From the NCBI GenBank assembly GCA_002964805.2, contig PUDQ02000003.1, positions 2,294,001 to 2,358,000 of the forward strand: a DNA stretch of 64,000 bases. The letters run 5' to 3'. Source of the DNA: Trametes villosa (taxonomy: Eukaryota; Basidiomycota; Agaricomycetes; Polyporales; Polyporaceae). How positions within the stretch are numbered: position 1 is the stretch's first letter; the number at the start of each line of letters is the position of its first letter. Both the position numbers and the translations under genes were made by a program. The notes under the pieces were generated by a model. That model was not told the DNA's origin and ran no database searches. It saw only the letters and a program-made list of their open reading frames with translations. Below, piece by piece: positions 6,850 to 19,921 of the stretch.

Positions 6850-9800
6850 ATGTATCAACGAGCCCGAGGGAAGAAGCTGGGCGCGGGTATCGCCCGCGGG
6901 TTCGACCATCGCCGCCCTGTGGCCAAGGCCTCGAAATCGGAGGTTGACAGTCATGGCCACCGGACTGTGGTCGAAAAGCAGCTGGAGTACGATACCCCGG
7001 GGCCCTCGCGGAAGAGGCCGCGCATGGAGGAGGACACGCCCACGAGTGCGACGAGCTCGTTGGATCCCGTGCCCGACGCCGACGGAGGCGACGCCGACGA
7101 TGATGGCATGCATGGAGAGCAGGCGTCCGCCACAGGGCCACAACCGGACGCATCGAACGCGAAACCGCCGCGCGAGAAGAAGGTGCGTGTCGCGCCCACG
7201 TCGCAGATTCTTTGCTAATAGCCTTTGCTCAGAACACCCCGTCGTACCAGATGAGACAGTGGTTGATCCGCGAGGGCGACATCCTCGCTCGACTCTTACA
7301 GCGCGAGCAAGACCCCGACATAGGGAAGCTCTGTGCGTGTGGCCTTCGCCCAGCGATTGCCCGTTGTCAAGAGTGCGGACAGAAGAGTCCGCAGTGCGAG
7401 CAATGCATCGTCCGTGACCACCGCCACCTGCATTACCACTGGATCGACCGTTGGAACGGACGACACTTCGAACGCGTCGACCTGGCGGAACTAGGCCACA
7501 TACTGTACCTCGGCCACCGCGACAAGCCCTGTCCCAACGCCTCCAGGACGGCCCGCGCGATGTACTTTGTCGTAGTACACACGAACGGCGTCCACCGCTG
7601 TCAAATCCAGTACTGTCAATGCGCAGGGCACGACGAACAGGTCTATCAGCTCATAACCGCGGGATTATGGCCATCCAGCCTCGAGCGTCCCGAGACCGCC
7701 TTCACGCAAGATCTTCTTCGCCACTGGCACCTCGACTGGGATGTGTCGCACAAGAGCGCACAGGACTTCTATCGCGTTTTGCAGCGCCTCACGAACAACG
7801 CGGCTCCGGAGACCGTTGAGGTGCGTACGATGTTGAACTTAGTGCCCCTAACCAAGCGTCGAACTCATTATCTATCTAGGATCGATACAAGGACCTCCTG
7901 AGTGCGTCGCGTTTGTGGCGCCACCTCACCATGGTCAAGCGGTCGGGGCGGTATCACGGCCTGCTTCTCCCTCATCGCCCACAGCGCACAATCACCGTGC
8001 CATGCTTCACCTGCCCCTGGCCGGACTTCAACCTGCCTGAGAATTGGAAGGAGACTCCGGAACACCTCAAGTCAGTCCGGTGTTTACGTGCGCCAGTGCG
8101 TCTTATTAACCGCATTGTCTGTATAGGTACATCTATCGCATTGTCATCGGGTGTGATGGAAACCACAGCTTGCACAAGAAGGCCAAGCGAGAGGACCCGG
8201 ACGACATCAGCCTCACCGTCGACCAGGGGTACTTTGTGAACCACGAGAAGATGTCCCAATATCTGGAGAAGAGTTACGAGAACGAGGACACGGTATGTCC
8301 GCGCGCTCACTCCTCCGCCGCGCCTAGCTAACGTCATTTAGCTGCAAACCTGCAGCGGCTTCCAGGTGCTGAAAACTTTGCGGCCAGGGAAGTTCCGATT
8401 CCTGGTCGTCAGCGGGATCATCGGGACGTTTTGTAAGCATGTTCTATTCCGCTCGGAAGGCATCGTGGACATGCAAACCGGGGAACGGTAAGACCACATC
8501 AGGCCCCATTGTTTTGGCCGTGGCTCACGCTTTGTCCGCAGGAGTGGCCACTCATTGTACGCGATCATCGGCGCCCTGCGAGGCACCGAACTACTCGAGC
8601 AGCGTGCCCTGACATACGACGTTGCTTGCATCATTATTCGCAACATGCTCAAACGATGTCGCGAATACTTCCCCGCCATGGTCCCCATCGTCGAGAAGCT
8701 CATGATACTCCTACCCAAACTCCACCTCTACGCCCACAAGGACTTGTGTCAGATAGTCTACGCCCTCGCATTCACATCCGGTTTCGGTCTGTCTCACGGC
8801 GAAGGCGTCGAGACCCCTTGGGCCGAGTTCAACATCGCAGGTCTCCCAACGCGTGAGATGACCGCGGGCGGACGCCACGACGCGCTGACGGACTTGTTCA
8901 ACTTCTGGAATTGGTGCAAAGTCGAGCGGATGGGTACGCGCACGTTGTTTGTACCGTCTTTCAGAGCTGACCGCGAATACACAGCGTCTTTCCTTGCTAA
9001 GAAGCTCACCGAAGCGTACGACGGACAGCGCCGAACGACACGATACTTCGCCGGTTTGACAGCTCTCGCGGGCCCTGCCACGGTGGCAGCATGGCTGCAA
9101 ATCCCATTCGACAGCGAAGCCCCCACCCCGCTGACGTTCAGGGAGAAGGAGGCAGCTTTCGCGTCAAGCCCCTTCCTGGTCAATCGCACCGATCGTCAGT
9201 ACTCTGACACCTCGCACTTGTAACGAGTGGCTAAGATGATCACAGTGCCCAGCGCCACTAGCGCGTACACCGTCCTGATCGAGGCACACCGCGATAACCC
9301 GCAGACGCACACTCGGCAGGTCCTCAGTCACCTGCGCAAGGAATATGCGAACTTCCTCAGGACGGCTCTGGACCTCGAGCAGGAAATGTGCGCGCTGCGG
9401 CTATAACTTAGCGGTGGAGGATACTGACTGTAGCCACAGGTTAGCGCTGCGGGACAAGGACACGCTGAAGAAGGCGGCTGCCCAGGGCGAGCTTGTCGAC
9501 GACAACGCCGTCGCCTGCACGACCTGGACAGCCTGGCGGAAGAAGGTTGATCAGTGGCGAGTCATCCAACGCAAGCTGATGCCCGGTCTCTGGACGGAAG
9601 CCTCAACCTCCGACAACGTACCAGCCTCGACCGATGCCGACGACACTCCAGATGACGCAGACGAGGACGACGAGGAGTACGTGGACGAAGGCCCGGCTGC
9701 ATCCGCGAGCTCGGTGGCCACGGGTTCTGGGTCGCCTTCGAAGGCGCAGGAAGTGCTCGGCCTGCCGTCCGACCTCAGCGCTGCTGAGAGGCAAGAGTTC

Positions 9801-12804: not shown

Positions 12805-12812
12805 GGCCAGCA
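12805..12812. repeat. left 8-bp target-site duplication (GGCCAGCA)
   Basis: GGCCAGCA abuts the left terminal inverted repeat. The identical octamer follows the right repeat at 19914-19921. An exact 8-bp direct repeat outside perfect inverted repeats marks an insertion that has not been rearranged. Confidence 0.92.
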
Positions 12813-12838
12813 AGGACCTAGGACAGCCCACCAAGAGC
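12813..12838 (+). repeat. left terminal inverted repeat (26 bp)
   Basis: It begins AGGACCTAGGACAGCCCACC and ends at 12838. It is the exact reverse complement of 19888-19913. Beyond 12838 the two ends diverge. Confidence 0.95.
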
Positions 12839-13347
12839 CCATAGGCTGGAAACCCCGAAAATGGGCCCGGAGGGCCCGAATCTTATGTGCTATTTGGGCA
12901 AAATTCCCCGAAAACTTGGGCTCTGACGGGCGGGGTGATGTGCTAAAAAGTCACCGAAAAGCGCCTTCCCGGGCGAAGGTCGTATCTACTGGGCCCCGAA
13001 TTCGGGCATCTCGGGGGACCCCCGGCTGATGGTGACCGAGGTCCCGCCAATGCCGGGACTGCGAAGGCGCCTTATAGAGCATGTCTACCAAACGCCACGG
13101 CTTTTCAACGCACAATAGTGTTGTTTATAAAGCATTTGTAGCCTCCACGTGAGGCATCTATACTCTGATCTATACAATTGCTATGGTGTTTATACGCAGT
13201 CAAGCCGCACTCTAAGCCCACATCAAATCCCGACATTTATCGGTAGTTCACGAGTTATTGAGGACAAGGCTACCCGTTCGAAGACCTCGTCAAATTTCTC
13301 CTCGCCGATCTCAATAGCACACTACTCGCTTCAGTCATTCCGGAACC
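12839..13347 (+). promoter_or_regulatory. left subterminal region and promoter of the transposase gene
   Basis: CCCCGAAAA occurs at 12853-12861 and 12906-12914. The second copy lies in a 21-bp stretch (12894-12914) that matches 19812-19832 at 19 positions in the same orientation. Related GCCCCGAATTCGGGC occurs near 12993. A TTTATAAA box at 13134-13141 lies about 207 bp before the ATG and could be the core promoter. Binding of the transposase to the repeated motif is inferred from its presence near both ends. Confidence 0.55.
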
Positions 13348-16300
13348 ATGCTCTCTGCCCAGGCGTCGTCTAAACTGCTTAGTGCATTCCATCTACCAGC
13401 CGACCTCTCTGTGTCCGACCTCCTACAATGGCCCCATAGTGCGAAACGTCCAGGAAGCCGAAAGTTCGCGCTAGCTGCTTCCGAATGGCTCTCCAAGGAG
13501 AAGCCGACAACTGTCGAGGTCTCGGCGGAGCCGCTGCTCCTCCCGTCTCCGTCTGTCTGCAAAGCTCTACCCTCCTTGCTCCGGGTGGCCAACTCGAAGA
13601 ACCAGGACGTCCTGTCCGTTCAGCATCCCACGAGCGTAGGGAGTTACTTGCCGTTGTGGGTGATCGCTGTCTGGGAGGCCGCGGACGAGATGCTCCATAT
13701 GCAGCAGTTCTGGCATGAGCGGCTGCTATGGGTTGAGCGAACAGCTAAAGCGGAGAAGTGGTCGGATGACTTACTCCAAGCCTCGACGGAGTGCATCAGA
13801 AGAGCGCCATGGGCCGCGGGGCTCCCTGCCCTGCAAAGAGGACTGGTCACTGCAGCTCATCTCGCACGGCACCTCCTCTCAGACAGGTGGCTGGATGACG
13901 AGGTCATTGACTGCCTCGGGGACGTCTTCTGCAAAGAACTAGTCCCACAGGTCAGCAAGACGACGGCCATTGCGACCGTACACCTCCGCACCTGTCTGTC
14001 AAACCCGCAGTCTGGCCTAGCTCGCTTCTATGGGGAGAAGCTCACCTCCGGATCCGTCACACGACTATTCATCCCCTGTAACATCAACAGCAGCCACTGG
14101 ATCCCCCTCGAGGTCGACACCGTCAAAGGGACCATCAGCTTGGGCGACTCGAAGCCGAAGGTCTCGCACGCACATATTCCGGCCCTACTCAATGACATAC
14201 ACGCTTGGCTCGGCCGAATCCTCCCGGGACATGCGTGGACAGTACATATGACTGCGCTTGAGGCTGGGCTTCAGCAAGATTCATCCTCCTGTGGTGTTGC
14301 AACGGTCAACGCAATCGAACGTCGCATCTCCCCCGCCGCTGCGAGGTGGTCACCTCAAGCCCCCGGGAAGGCGCGTGCCCGATACTTCAAACGATGCCTA
14401 GAGTGGGGTGGAGCGAAGGTAAGCACTTCCTATCCTGCTCGAGGGCGCATTCACTGAAGATGTACCCACATTGACAGGGCTCTACCAACTTGGGGACTGG
14501 AAGCATTGACAGAACAACGTCGAGCGATACCCTCCCTAGCAATTCCCTCTGGGACGTTGTGTCGGCAGAGCTGGGTCAGATGCAGGAACCGCAGAGGGAG
14601 CGGTCACAGGAGGAAGTTGGATGCACCAGCACACCAGCTCGGCACCCAGCAGCAGAAGTGGCAGGGTCGTCTGGGAGCGCGTACGAGTCCGACTCGGATT
14701 CCACGTCCGACGAGTCCACAGAGTCATCCAAGGACGAAGAAGAGCCCCGCAGCATGCCTACATCCGTCAGGGGCCCAAAGCGCACGCAGCAGTCGACTGT
14801 CAAGCCGCTGTTCATTGCCCCAAATGTCAAGGTTGATCTGAAGGTCTCGCAGAAGGTCAGCTTCAATGTGCTGTCCATGCGGGATAGGCACGATCCTGAC
14901 CATCTATTCTCTGTACCAGCCACGGAACTTAGGGACCGAACCGTCATGGTTCTCGGCGAGCAAGTTCCGCAAATTCCAGACCAAGGTGAAGGCGGACGAC
15001 CGCAGAGCTGAGTTCAGCTGGCACGATCCCCGCATCGTCCGCTGCTCACGCTGCCTCAAGACAGTGACCATGCGCACCGCGAACAACACCGAACGATGGA
15101 AGGAGCATCGTCGCAGCCGCAAGTGCCGCAGCGCGAAGGGAGGACAAGCGTTCATCACGAACTTCTTCCAAACGCAGCGCTCGGTCATCACCTCCCAGAC
15201 GTCTACGCCGAAGTCGAAAACTCCCGTCGCGTGCCCTGGACTCGGATTTGCTCAGGACCACCGGATACCTGCATACCTCGCCCGCACAACGGTGGAATCT
15301 GGAGGGGCACCACGCCGGGACGTCATCAAGCGTGAAGTGCTGCGCGACCACGCCCGGTCGCACTCTCGGAGCAAGCTCACACCGAAGCAGCTCCTCACTC
15401 GCATCATCGCGCAAGAGCGGGTGCAGGCGAAGTGGCTCAACCATCCAACAAACGGTGTCGTCACCTCAGCCAAATGCCAGAAGCGAAGCCGCTTTTCGCC
15501 GACCGGAGAGCTGTTGCCGTGCTCGGAGTGCGCCAAACTCCAGCGGCTCAAGATCTTCCTGAACGCTCTTCGCAAGAAGGCACCTGCACCTGGAAAAGCG
15601 AAGTTCACACCGAAGGCATACCGTAACCCGGTGACTGGCAAGTCATACCTGCATCACTGCGACGTGCAGGAACTCATGGAGATGGTGTGTACCTGTAGAA
15701 GGTTGAGAAAATGTTGACACTGCGCACACCGCTAACTTACCTGGGTATCTAGGAGAAACACAAGTTCCCGTGGAAGACTCTGGCTTTACGGGGCATACAA
15801 GGACGCTACGACGATCGCCAGGTGTTCCTCGGCATGCTAGATACGATCATGCGTGTCGAGGATCGCCTGAGCAAAGGAAAGACGGTCGCAGGCATACGGT
15901 ACGGTGCATCCTACGATGAGATCTGCACCACAATGGCGCTTCTCTCTCCTCGGGCGTACGCGACCCTTCGTGCAGAGTTTGGTGGCCGAAGTCTTCGTAA
16001 CATGCGGTCAGTCTTAAACCATTCATAGGTAGAGAAGGGGTAGCTCACTCAGTTTGTGCTACACCAGCGTGATTCGTAAACGTAGCGGCCGGTTCAAACC
16101 CGGCATAGACGACGCAAACTTCGACGCAGCCGTGGAATGGTCGCAGGGGCTGGGATGGGACGGGCCGTTCATCCTGGCCGCAGATGACACGAAGATTATC
16201 GCCGCTCTTCGTTCGTTCCATGACGGGGAGAACTGGCGCCTCGGAGGAGTCCACGGAACTGTTCACGTGTTCTCGAGCTATGAAGAGCTCATGGAGCTGG

Positions 16301-19300
16301 GGCAAGTCGAGCAGGGGGATCTGGCTGAGAAGGTATGGTGCATCAGCGCAAAATTCTAAGTCATGCAGTAGATCTCACCTGTGGCTGGGCAGACGAGAGC
16401 GTGGCACCTCATCATACCCGTCATCGGGGTACCTCCAAAATTGATAGCGACAATGCCGCTGAAGAACAGTGTGAGCCGAGCTGAGCTGAGGGGATGGCAT
16501 GACGAGGTTTCGCAGAAGCTCGCCGCGCGTGGACTGCATGTTGTCTCGTACAACGTTGACGGCGTGGAGACCGAACGAGGCCTAACCCATGATCTGCAAC
16601 AAGAGGCGATCGACGCAGGCAGGACTCGCACGTGGAGCTTCAACCATCCCGTCGCTGGACAGCCCACGCTACAGCTCACAGCTCCCCTTCTCGAGAACGG
16701 CAAGCCGTGCATCATGTCCACGGACGGGAAGCACGCAAAGAAGAACGGTCGAGGGAGTGCAACCGCAGGCTCACGTGTTGTGCCCATCGGCCGCTATCTG
16801 GCGCACTTCGGTCTTCTGAAGCGGATCGCGGAAGGGAAGAACTCGCCTCTCATGAAGTCCGACATCGTCGGCGTAGACAAACAGGACGACCGCGCAGCTG
16901 CCAGGCTCTTCTCCTCGGCTGTCATCGACTACTCGTCACGCACCCTTCCGGACGAGCTTGGCCTCGTCATCTACCTGTTCATCATTGGCGAGATTGTCGA
17001 CGCGCAGCAGAACCGAGCACTCACCCATTCAGAGCGCATCAAGATGCTCTGGCGTGGCCGATTCTTCCTCGATGGATGGCGGCAGCACATCATCGACCAC
17101 CCCTTCTATGCACTCCACACACACTTCATCTCACGCGAACTCTACGACATCCTCTCGATCTTTATCAACGCCATGCTACTACTGATCATCACTCACCGCG
17201 ACTATTTCCCTGACACTCCGCTGCTTCACTGGCTCAACTCGACCGAGACGTGCGAACACTTCTTCGGGTGCGCGCGGAAGATTCAGAAGGATTTCACGTT
17301 CGTCGAGTGGCTGTTGATGATTCCGAAAATCTCAGTACTCATGGCTGGCGAGCTTCGGAGCAAGCTGAAGGGCGCACAGGAGAAGGCGGCCGCGTCGCGC
17401 TTCGGCTATCACCATTCGTACTTCAACTCTCGTGGCGTGGACCTGGCGAACCTGGCTACATTCCCGTCAGACACCGAGATCGAAAAGCTCATTGGTGTGG
17501 CTCATACCGAGGCGCAATCTCTACTGGCTATCGTCGGGATCAATCTGCAAGCTCTCCCTGTCATCGACACGAAGGGCTTCGCTGCAGCATTGGCAACTCT
17601 GTCGAGCGACCCCCCCGACGCCGCCGCTGCCGATTCCACTGAGGACGCACCTGCAGCTCATCTGGAGCAGCTCTTGCAGGGCGACAAGCACCACTTCTTG
17701 TTGGGAACTGGCAGCCGGCTAGCGAATGACGAAGCGTTGACGAACGTCGGTGTGCATGCGACGGCGACGGTCATTCATGACCACTTGCGACTGTGAGTGC
17801 TCTTCACAATGGTGCGGTCGCGTGAACATGCTGATTTGACATGAATTTGTCAGCGAGGACCTCAGCGAAGAGACCGTCCCAGAGGAGAACTCAACCGCCT
17901 ACCGCGATCACATACAAGGCGTCCTCGCCGCCGTTAAGGCCGAGCTAGCAAATCGCAATGCTCAAGAGGCGGCCGCAGCCGCAGCATCCACTAGCTCGCA
18001 GCCTATTGGTAGGGCGGCGTCGGAAGCAGCGCCTGCCACGACGCATGACAGCGCCGCGCCGCGCGACGGAGGTAACACGCCGGCAGGGGACAACTCGACG
18101 AAACGCGCAGAGCGTCAAGAAGCACTCGACCGGCTCCTGGTTCCTCTGGACTTCGGCACTGCTCGCTCCTTCAACTTCGACACCTTGGTTAGCGAGCGTC
18201 GCCGCCACGAGACGAAGGAGGCTTCGAGTGCCGTGACATACCGGTACAACAACGCTCTCGCCATGGGTTTACTAGACGACCTTCGGGAGCCTCGTGATGA
18301 AGTCTCTGGAGCTGAAGAGGCCACGTCAGCGGAGAGCGATACGGTGGAGCTGAAAGCCGCACTTATTTCTCAGATTACACGCGTCCTATCGGCAGAAGTG
18401 GCTTCCGGTACAGCGGGCGTCCGAGATGATGGCCGTGCTGAGGCGTCGGGCGTCGAACGGAAGACGCGGTGGCAAGGAGCATCGGGGGAGGGGAAGGAAA
18501 GCGGGGGGAGTGGGGGGATTGCCAGCGCGATGACAGCGGTCCTGGGAGAAATGGGAGGTGAGCAGAGCGCCTTCGTTGACAGCCGGAAACATCCGCTGAC
18601 ACGTCCTGCTGCGGCGCCTGTAGCAGCTGGAATCCGGACTGCACGAACTGGGCCGTATCGTGAGTTGGAAGAGAAGATGCCATACTCCTTCGCTTCTGCC
18701 GGGTTGTCGCATTTCAATCCCCTCCGGCAAGGCTCTTGGGTTGTTGTATGCAAGATGAAGAAGCTCTATCTTGGCGAAGGTAAGTCAATCAGACACGCGT
18801 CCTCGTATTGTGATAAATGAGCACGTACTGAACGCGTAGCAGTGATGGTGCTGTACCTCAAGGGAGGAGGAGCGCGCCCAACACACAACTATGCCGAAAC
18901 CTGCGAAGATATCAGCAAACTCTCTCGTTTGGTGGTTCTCATCTACACTGTACTAGGTGACACAGTCCTCTCACCATTGACCGTGTCCATGTCGGGCGGA
19001 GGCTCCATGGATTCACCGACGTTCCTGTACCTGCACCAGGAGAGTCTGATCACCTCCATGGACGCTCACTGTCCGAAGGCTGTCGAAAGCAAGTTCAGCG
19101 TGCAACCCGGCCTGCATATGCTTACCGTCAAGAACGCCCTCATCGAGCATTTCCGGACGTTGGAAGCCCACTCGCAATCGGTATGCAACGCCGTCGACGG
19201 CGTGCTCAAGGAGACGAGGAAAAGGAAGAAACGTGCAGAGACCGAGTCCTCTTCTTTGGAGTGTCGAATGGAGGATGACGGTGTCGGGACCTCAAAGCGT

Positions 19301-19312
19301 TCTAGATCGTAG
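13348..19312 (+). CDS. Ulp1 SUMO-protease / zinc-finger / RNase H-like transposase fusion
   Basis: Eight exons: 13348-14418, 14478-14855, 14920-15684, 15753-16006, 16053-16332, 16393-17792, 17854-18779, 18843-19312. All junctions are GT-AG and every phase agrees, giving 1847 residues. Residues 1-357 form a Ulp1/C48-type protease: SSHWIPLEVD (H250), LGDS (D267), GLQQDSSSCGVATVN (Q309 or Q310, C315). Residues 358-483 are an acidic Ser-rich linker. A zinc finger follows: C525-x2-C528-x17-H546-x5-C552. The transposase region shows LAADDTKIIAALR (D867/D868), VPPKLIATMPL, VSYNVDGVETERG (D972), STDGKHAKKNGR (D1027), VDKQDDRAAARLF, WLNSTETCEHFFGCARK (E1201, E1204) and DFTFVEWL. These resemble P-element/THAP9 landmarks, but assignment of the catalytic acids is inference. 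The C-terminus includes SFASAGLSHFNPLRQGSWV and a KRKKRAE tail. It could instead be two adjacent genes, but no stop separates the parts. Confidence 0.88.
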
Positions 19313-19887
19313 CTAAAGGCGTGATATGCTGTACCGTGTTTTGTTATACGACGAGTCTTGACAAGAGCACAAGTAGAACTGTCGGTAGCGATGCGGGCGC
19401 TCGGCCGACCACAGTGAACGCTCAAGAATGTCCACATTAAGCGCGCGCTCGAGAGCGCTCGCGGCCTCACCCACAAGATGTTGAGCTGCAGCATGAGGCA
19501 TAAATTAGCAAGGAAAAGTAAACACACAGAAGTCTTGAGCGATGGAATCTCTATCCTTCCATGCAAGATAATTGTTTTGCAGACCAGTATTGAAGAAGAT
19601 CTTTGAGTTATAGTAAAGTGTACAGTTTCGATCTTGTTACACTATTGCTACAATCCTGTTCCTCTCGACTGTCCTCACCGTCCTCCCCCTCCTCCTCGTA
19701 CTCGTCCCTGAGAACCTTGGCGGACGTCTCAGGCCCCAAAAAAATCGATTTACAGGCCTCAACCGATGTTATATGCCGAAAATCCCCGAATCCGGCGAAG
19801 CCGGCCGCAACTTGGGGGAAATTCCCCGAAAATGGACGGTTTTGGGACCCCCGAAAACCGCCAAAATGACCCCCAAATCGGATATGA
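19313..19887 (+). promoter_or_regulatory. right subterminal region of the transposon
   Basis: This is the 3' flank of the transposase gene up to the right inverted repeat. CCCCGAAAA recurs at 19824-19832 and 19849-19857, with related GCCGAAAATCCCCGAATCCGG near 19775-19795. Most of 19313-19700 is AT-richer, and no ORF there is supported. The transcription terminator of the gene should lie here, though no specific signal can be pointed to. Confidence 0.5.
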
Positions 19888-19913
19888 GCTCTTGGTGGGC
19901 TGTCCTAGGTCCT
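19888..19913 (-). repeat. right terminal inverted repeat (26 bp)
   Basis: Exact reverse complement of 12813-12838, ending CTAGGTCCT at 19913. Confidence 0.95.
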
Positions 19914-19921
19914 GGCCAGCA
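19914..19921. repeat. right 8-bp target-site duplication (GGCCAGCA)
   Basis: Identical to 12805-12812 and directly adjacent to the right inverted repeat. Confidence 0.92.

Follow-up and report, generated by a model that had tools for sequence, protein, structure and literature searches.

We describe here an element of 7.1 kb (12813-19913) in a stretch of 64,000 nucleotides of the Trametes villosa genome (assembly GCA_002964805.2, contig PUDQ02000003.1, positions 2,294,001 to 2,358,000 of the forward strand), hereafter called the window, whose own numbering is used for positions. It is very probably an autonomous cut-and-paste DNA transposon of agaricomycetes with one gene, whose product carries a Ulp1/SENP-like cysteine protease at the N terminus, then a C2HC motif and, towards the C terminus, a DDE transposase of the P fold. 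The ends, the target duplication, the open gene model and the relatives are read from sequence, while both folds come from structure prediction. The features of the element are listed below.

12805..12812, no strand: left target-site duplication (TSD), GGCCAGCA
12813..12838, plus strand: left terminal inverted repeat (TIR), 26 bp, starting with AGGACC
13348..14418, plus strand: exon 1, predicted Ulp1/SENP-type (C48) protease domain
14419..14477, plus strand: intron 1, 59 bp, GTAAGC...CAG, with a stop inside if exon 1 is read unspliced
14478..14843, plus strand: exon 2, linker of acidic, low-complexity sequence, whose 3' boundary is the least secure
14920..15684, plus strand: exon 3, with the C2HC zinc-finger motif at residues 521-548 and the first part of the N-terminal transposase region
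15753..16006, plus strand: exon 4, ahead of the RNase H domain and modelled as helical in a homologue
16068..16332, plus strand: exon 5, first predicted RNase H strands and first conserved D in DDTK (D858/D859)
16393..17792, plus strand: exon 6, remaining predicted RNase H core with the second D (963), the insertion region and the TETCEHFF helix (E1192/E1195)
17854..18779, plus strand: exon 7, C-terminal region, low complexity in part
18843..19312, plus strand: exon 8, conserved C-terminal region, basic tail and stop
19888..19913, minus strand: right TIR, 26 bp
19914..19921, no strand: right TSD, GGCCAGCA

The two TIRs are identical at 26 of 26 bases, and the 8-bp TSD is exact on both sides of the element. 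In a pattern search of the 46.7-Mb assembly, the 26-bp end was found at 8 sites when as many as 3 mismatches were allowed, and the reversed pattern, used as a control, at none. The exact 26-mer is present at two of these 8 sites, which are the ends of the window element itself. The eight-exon gene is open and encodes 1838 amino acids (aa) without internal stop, in a model revised against homologues: two splice acceptors were shifted after alignment, that of exon 5 from 16053 to 16068 and that of exon 8 from 18840 to 18843. The introns are 59-76 bp long, and the least certain boundary lies at the 5' end of intron 2 (donor GTCTCG at 14844). The perfect ends, the perfect duplication and the open gene claimed in a preliminary description of this DNA thus hold, the gene with the two acceptors moved. 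With its intact ends and open gene, the window element is probably a recent insertion. The C-terminal region encoded by 18843-19312 matches no Pfam family; its pattern PL.pGS.v....y.GE...LY is kept in the equivalents from L030-L033, i.e. in both lineages of relatives considered below.

When the genome was searched with the exon 6 protein, 13 matches were obtained at nine places. The next match after the window copy is only 40% identical, so that this copy looks single. The 10-kb regions around the eight other places contain five more two-ended elements (L028, L030, L031, L032 and L033) of 6.1-7.2 kb; two-ended, or complete, means here that both ends were found and says nothing on intact genes. 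No ends were found in the regions around L029, L034 and L035. These copy counts are lower bounds, since the genome searches score best candidates only. All six two-ended elements start with AGGACC, and exact 8-bp TSDs flank four of the five relatives, L030 being the exception. Profiles of the core region from lineage I and from lineage II (L030-L033) can be aligned with an E-value of 1.4e-58. L034 (contig C131) and L035 (C58) carry the same transposase fragment with identical match values and look like one sequence; its presence on both contigs may reflect a duplication, or the contigs may be allelic. In addition, ten distinct short elements, 486-498 bp in length, show related ends together with exact TSDs, and L022 is an eleventh. 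Of 13 short-element loci, 11 were first paired; they correspond to these ten, L008 and L027 being one and the same insertion. At their ends, the short copies share 78-84% identity with the window element, and a sister family may therefore have moved them. Exact 8-bp TSDs border 15 of the 16 tabulated insertions, plus L022, and the 15 all differ from one another. TIRs, TSDs, relatives and short copies with TSDs of their own agree with the claim of a whole transposon. The family that the preliminary description suggested looking for is borne out by the AGGACC relatives and their TSDs, but not by the exact 26-mer, which is confined to the window element.

Homologous proteins are present in other species. 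A first search returned six, and an N-terminal protease is found in four of them: P0001 (Trametes), P0002 (Ganoderma), P0005 (Schizophyllum) and P0006 (Leucogyrophana). The second search returned 31 proteins, among which Mycena P0011 is a further fused protein. A Trametes pubescens protein shows a 67% match to the window protein. The database names of P0001, P0026 and P0027 open with "Ubiquitin-like protease family"; as judged by eye, the catalytic motif is incomplete in the models of P0026 and P0027. Trees built from 11 proteases and from 17 transposase cores recover matching groups, apart from a single discrepancy with weak support, the L028/P0005 placement (support 0.197 in the protease tree). 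For lineage-II pairs, nonsynonymous divergence (dN) is 0.09-0.49 and synonymous divergence (dS) is 1.0-2.3 or saturated, with protease and transposase blocks alike. Between the window element and L028, compared over the transposase only, dN is 0.67 and dS 1.75. Judging from these relatives, the data suggest that the pairing of protease and transposase is old.

In the protease part, the catalytic residues H, D, Q and C occur in order (H250, D267, Q309/Q310, C315), with H250, D267 and C315 as the likely triad, and the predicted structure has the Ulp1 fold. The catalytic motif, read by eye, is also present in the other five two-ended elements, in all cases upstream of the transposase. A hidden Markov model (HMM) recognizes Ulp1 in L028 and, weakly, in L032 (E 1.5e-4); for L030, L031 and L033 the assignment combines sub-threshold HMM scores with reading by eye. 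The Pfam C48 model scores 31.3 bits on L033 (cut-off 20.7) and matches 5 of 33 homologues (E up to 0.1). Fold prediction and catalytic motif together support the SUMO-type Ulp1 protease previously claimed. Outside the six elements, two C48 matches with identical scores lie in opposite orientation within 409-aa frames (G000:C27:8830-9309 and 18166-18645).

The zinc finger of the preliminary description is present as a C-x2-C...H-x5-C motif in the window protein, but no Pfam zinc-finger model matches this motif. A THAP domain was not matched by Pfam in the window protein at E up to 10. For the RNase H-like, P-like transposase that had been proposed, the predicted structure of a homologue, P0007, has the fold of the P element transposase, its RNase H domain being interrupted by a helical insertion; sequence profiles give no support. 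Lineage II retains D858 rather than D859. Comparison with the Pfam P-transposase models, which the preliminary description had suggested, gave none over cut-off in the window protein, and no Pfam transposase model of any kind was over cut-off in this protein or its homologues. One of 33 homologues shows a sub-threshold PF12017 match (15.5 bits, cut-off 23, E 0.023), and PF21787 is nowhere over cut-off in the genome, with one sub-threshold match on contig C32. A core-profile search of proteins with solved structures gave only CTCF (E 1.7), and P0007 had no match in viral contigs. A family missing from the structure-match lists is not thereby excluded.

Several observations weigh against a P-like transposase fused to a Ulp1 protease. 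The transposase fold was predicted on P0007, not on the window protein. The top Foldseek row for the protease is Den1, a NEDD8 protease. Pfam C48 remains below cut-off on the window protein (E 0.19, 12 bits against 20.7), and among the 7 matches of a genome-wide C48 scan only L032 represents the six elements (22.7 bits with neighbours). The gene models of P0003 and P0004 are without the protease, P0002 has only part of the zinc-finger motif and P0005 none of it, and some relatives in the genome have in-frame stops, possibly intronic. Selection on the protease was measured in lineage-II pairs only. Finally, the Drosophila P element has a palindromic target preference; the TSDs analyzed here show none (18 of 60 pairs, shuffle mean 19.1).

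There is a real, if minor, chance that the element has already been described, in Repbase or elsewhere, as a P or other superfamily element. Repbase holds many fungal entries, and homologous proteins are present in public databases. However, nothing alike was found among the literature titles and abstract openings covered, and the absence of Pfam transposase models over cut-off also speaks against it. In the P element superfamily, 8-bp TSDs are typical, a THAP DNA-binding domain is typical but not universal, and catalysis is GTP-dependent; plant CACTA and Mutator-like elements have TSDs of other lengths than the window element. Compared with the Drosophila P element (PDB 6P5A/6PE2), the window element has an N-terminal Ulp1 protease and AGGACC ends; sequence identity is 13%, no Pfam P model is over cut-off, and there is a C2HC motif and no Pfam THAP match. 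Some Ginger1 families have a Ulp1 domain in the transposase protein, but with a gypsy-integrase-type DDE core and a C-terminal protease (PMC2836005). Plant CACTA and Mutator-like elements carry ULP1, and rice proteins hold both Tnp2 and ULP1, but these belong to other transposase superfamilies and plant hosts (PMC2528002). Oomycete Cryptons share the C48 peptidase but use a tyrosine recombinase instead of a DDE enzyme (PMC3212892). The preliminary description had considered the element non-standard. This stands in so far as no P-like transposase with Ulp1 was found in the literature titles and abstract openings covered, which is weak evidence of absence; Ulp1-transposase proteins as such have been published for other superfamilies (PMC2836005, PMC2528002).

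Two adjoining genes within one element, one for Ulp1 and one for the transposase, joined only by gene models, are an improbable reading. Reading exon 1 on into intron 1 leads to a stop, and two annotated homologues begin downstream of the protease, as two genes would predict. In contrast, in each of the six two-ended elements the Ulp1 exon is closed by a GT(A/G)AG donor, fused gene models are found across several genera, and both parts lie on one strand, joined by a short intron with standard ends. The single fused product proposed earlier is therefore favoured by the sequences.

Membership in the Kyakuja-Dileera-Zisupton (KDZ) group is very improbable: these elements have fungal hosts including agaricomycetes, and Zisupton and one Dileera family make 8-bp TSDs like that of the window element (PMC12730594), but PF18758 matches neither the window protein nor its homologues, despite at least 116 KDZ matches elsewhere in the genome, and a Pfam scan found no TET/JBP domain in the window protein. 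The abundance of KDZ matches in this genome would fit such membership. One KDZ transposase match lies inside the window itself (8345-8911, plus strand), some 3.9 kb to the left of the element; it scores 108.2 bits and contains one TAA.

For a transposon with a fused protease, we propose that the zinc-finger region would bind the AGGACC ends and the DDE core would cut the element out and insert it with an 8-bp stagger. The protease could strip SUMO or a related modifier off the transposase itself, or off host factors present where the element leaves or lands, and would in this way help repair or work against silencing. More speculatively, and with doubt outweighing confidence, the AGGACC elements may form a mushroom branch of their own within the P clade, whose transposase obligately includes a deSUMOylating protease, the two being co-inherited since before the split of the two lineages, and retention of intron 1 would release free protease. 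The latter idea stems from the four lineage-II elements, in which an in-frame stop immediately follows the last codon of the Ulp1 exon. Such a splice switch can be likened to the intron retention of the P element. Ulp1-like proteases recur in several transposon groups that are unrelated to one another. In the present elements, the protease seems to be covalently joined to the transposase in two deeply split lineages, with low dN relative to dS where comparable, which makes its role testable. A fungal branch overlooked by sequence profiles would be added to the P clade, whose best-known members come from insects and other animals.

A twelfth short element lies on contig C106 (G000:C106:20858-56022; L036 and L037). 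Its matching 8-bp duplications are 35.2 kb apart, so that it is split by a large insertion. A genome search for DNA_pol_B_2, run without positive control, gave no match. The insertion is about 34.7 kb long and sits near position 141-145 of the short element, and its ends have in common an inverted repeat of about 1.8 kb with 94.6% identity.
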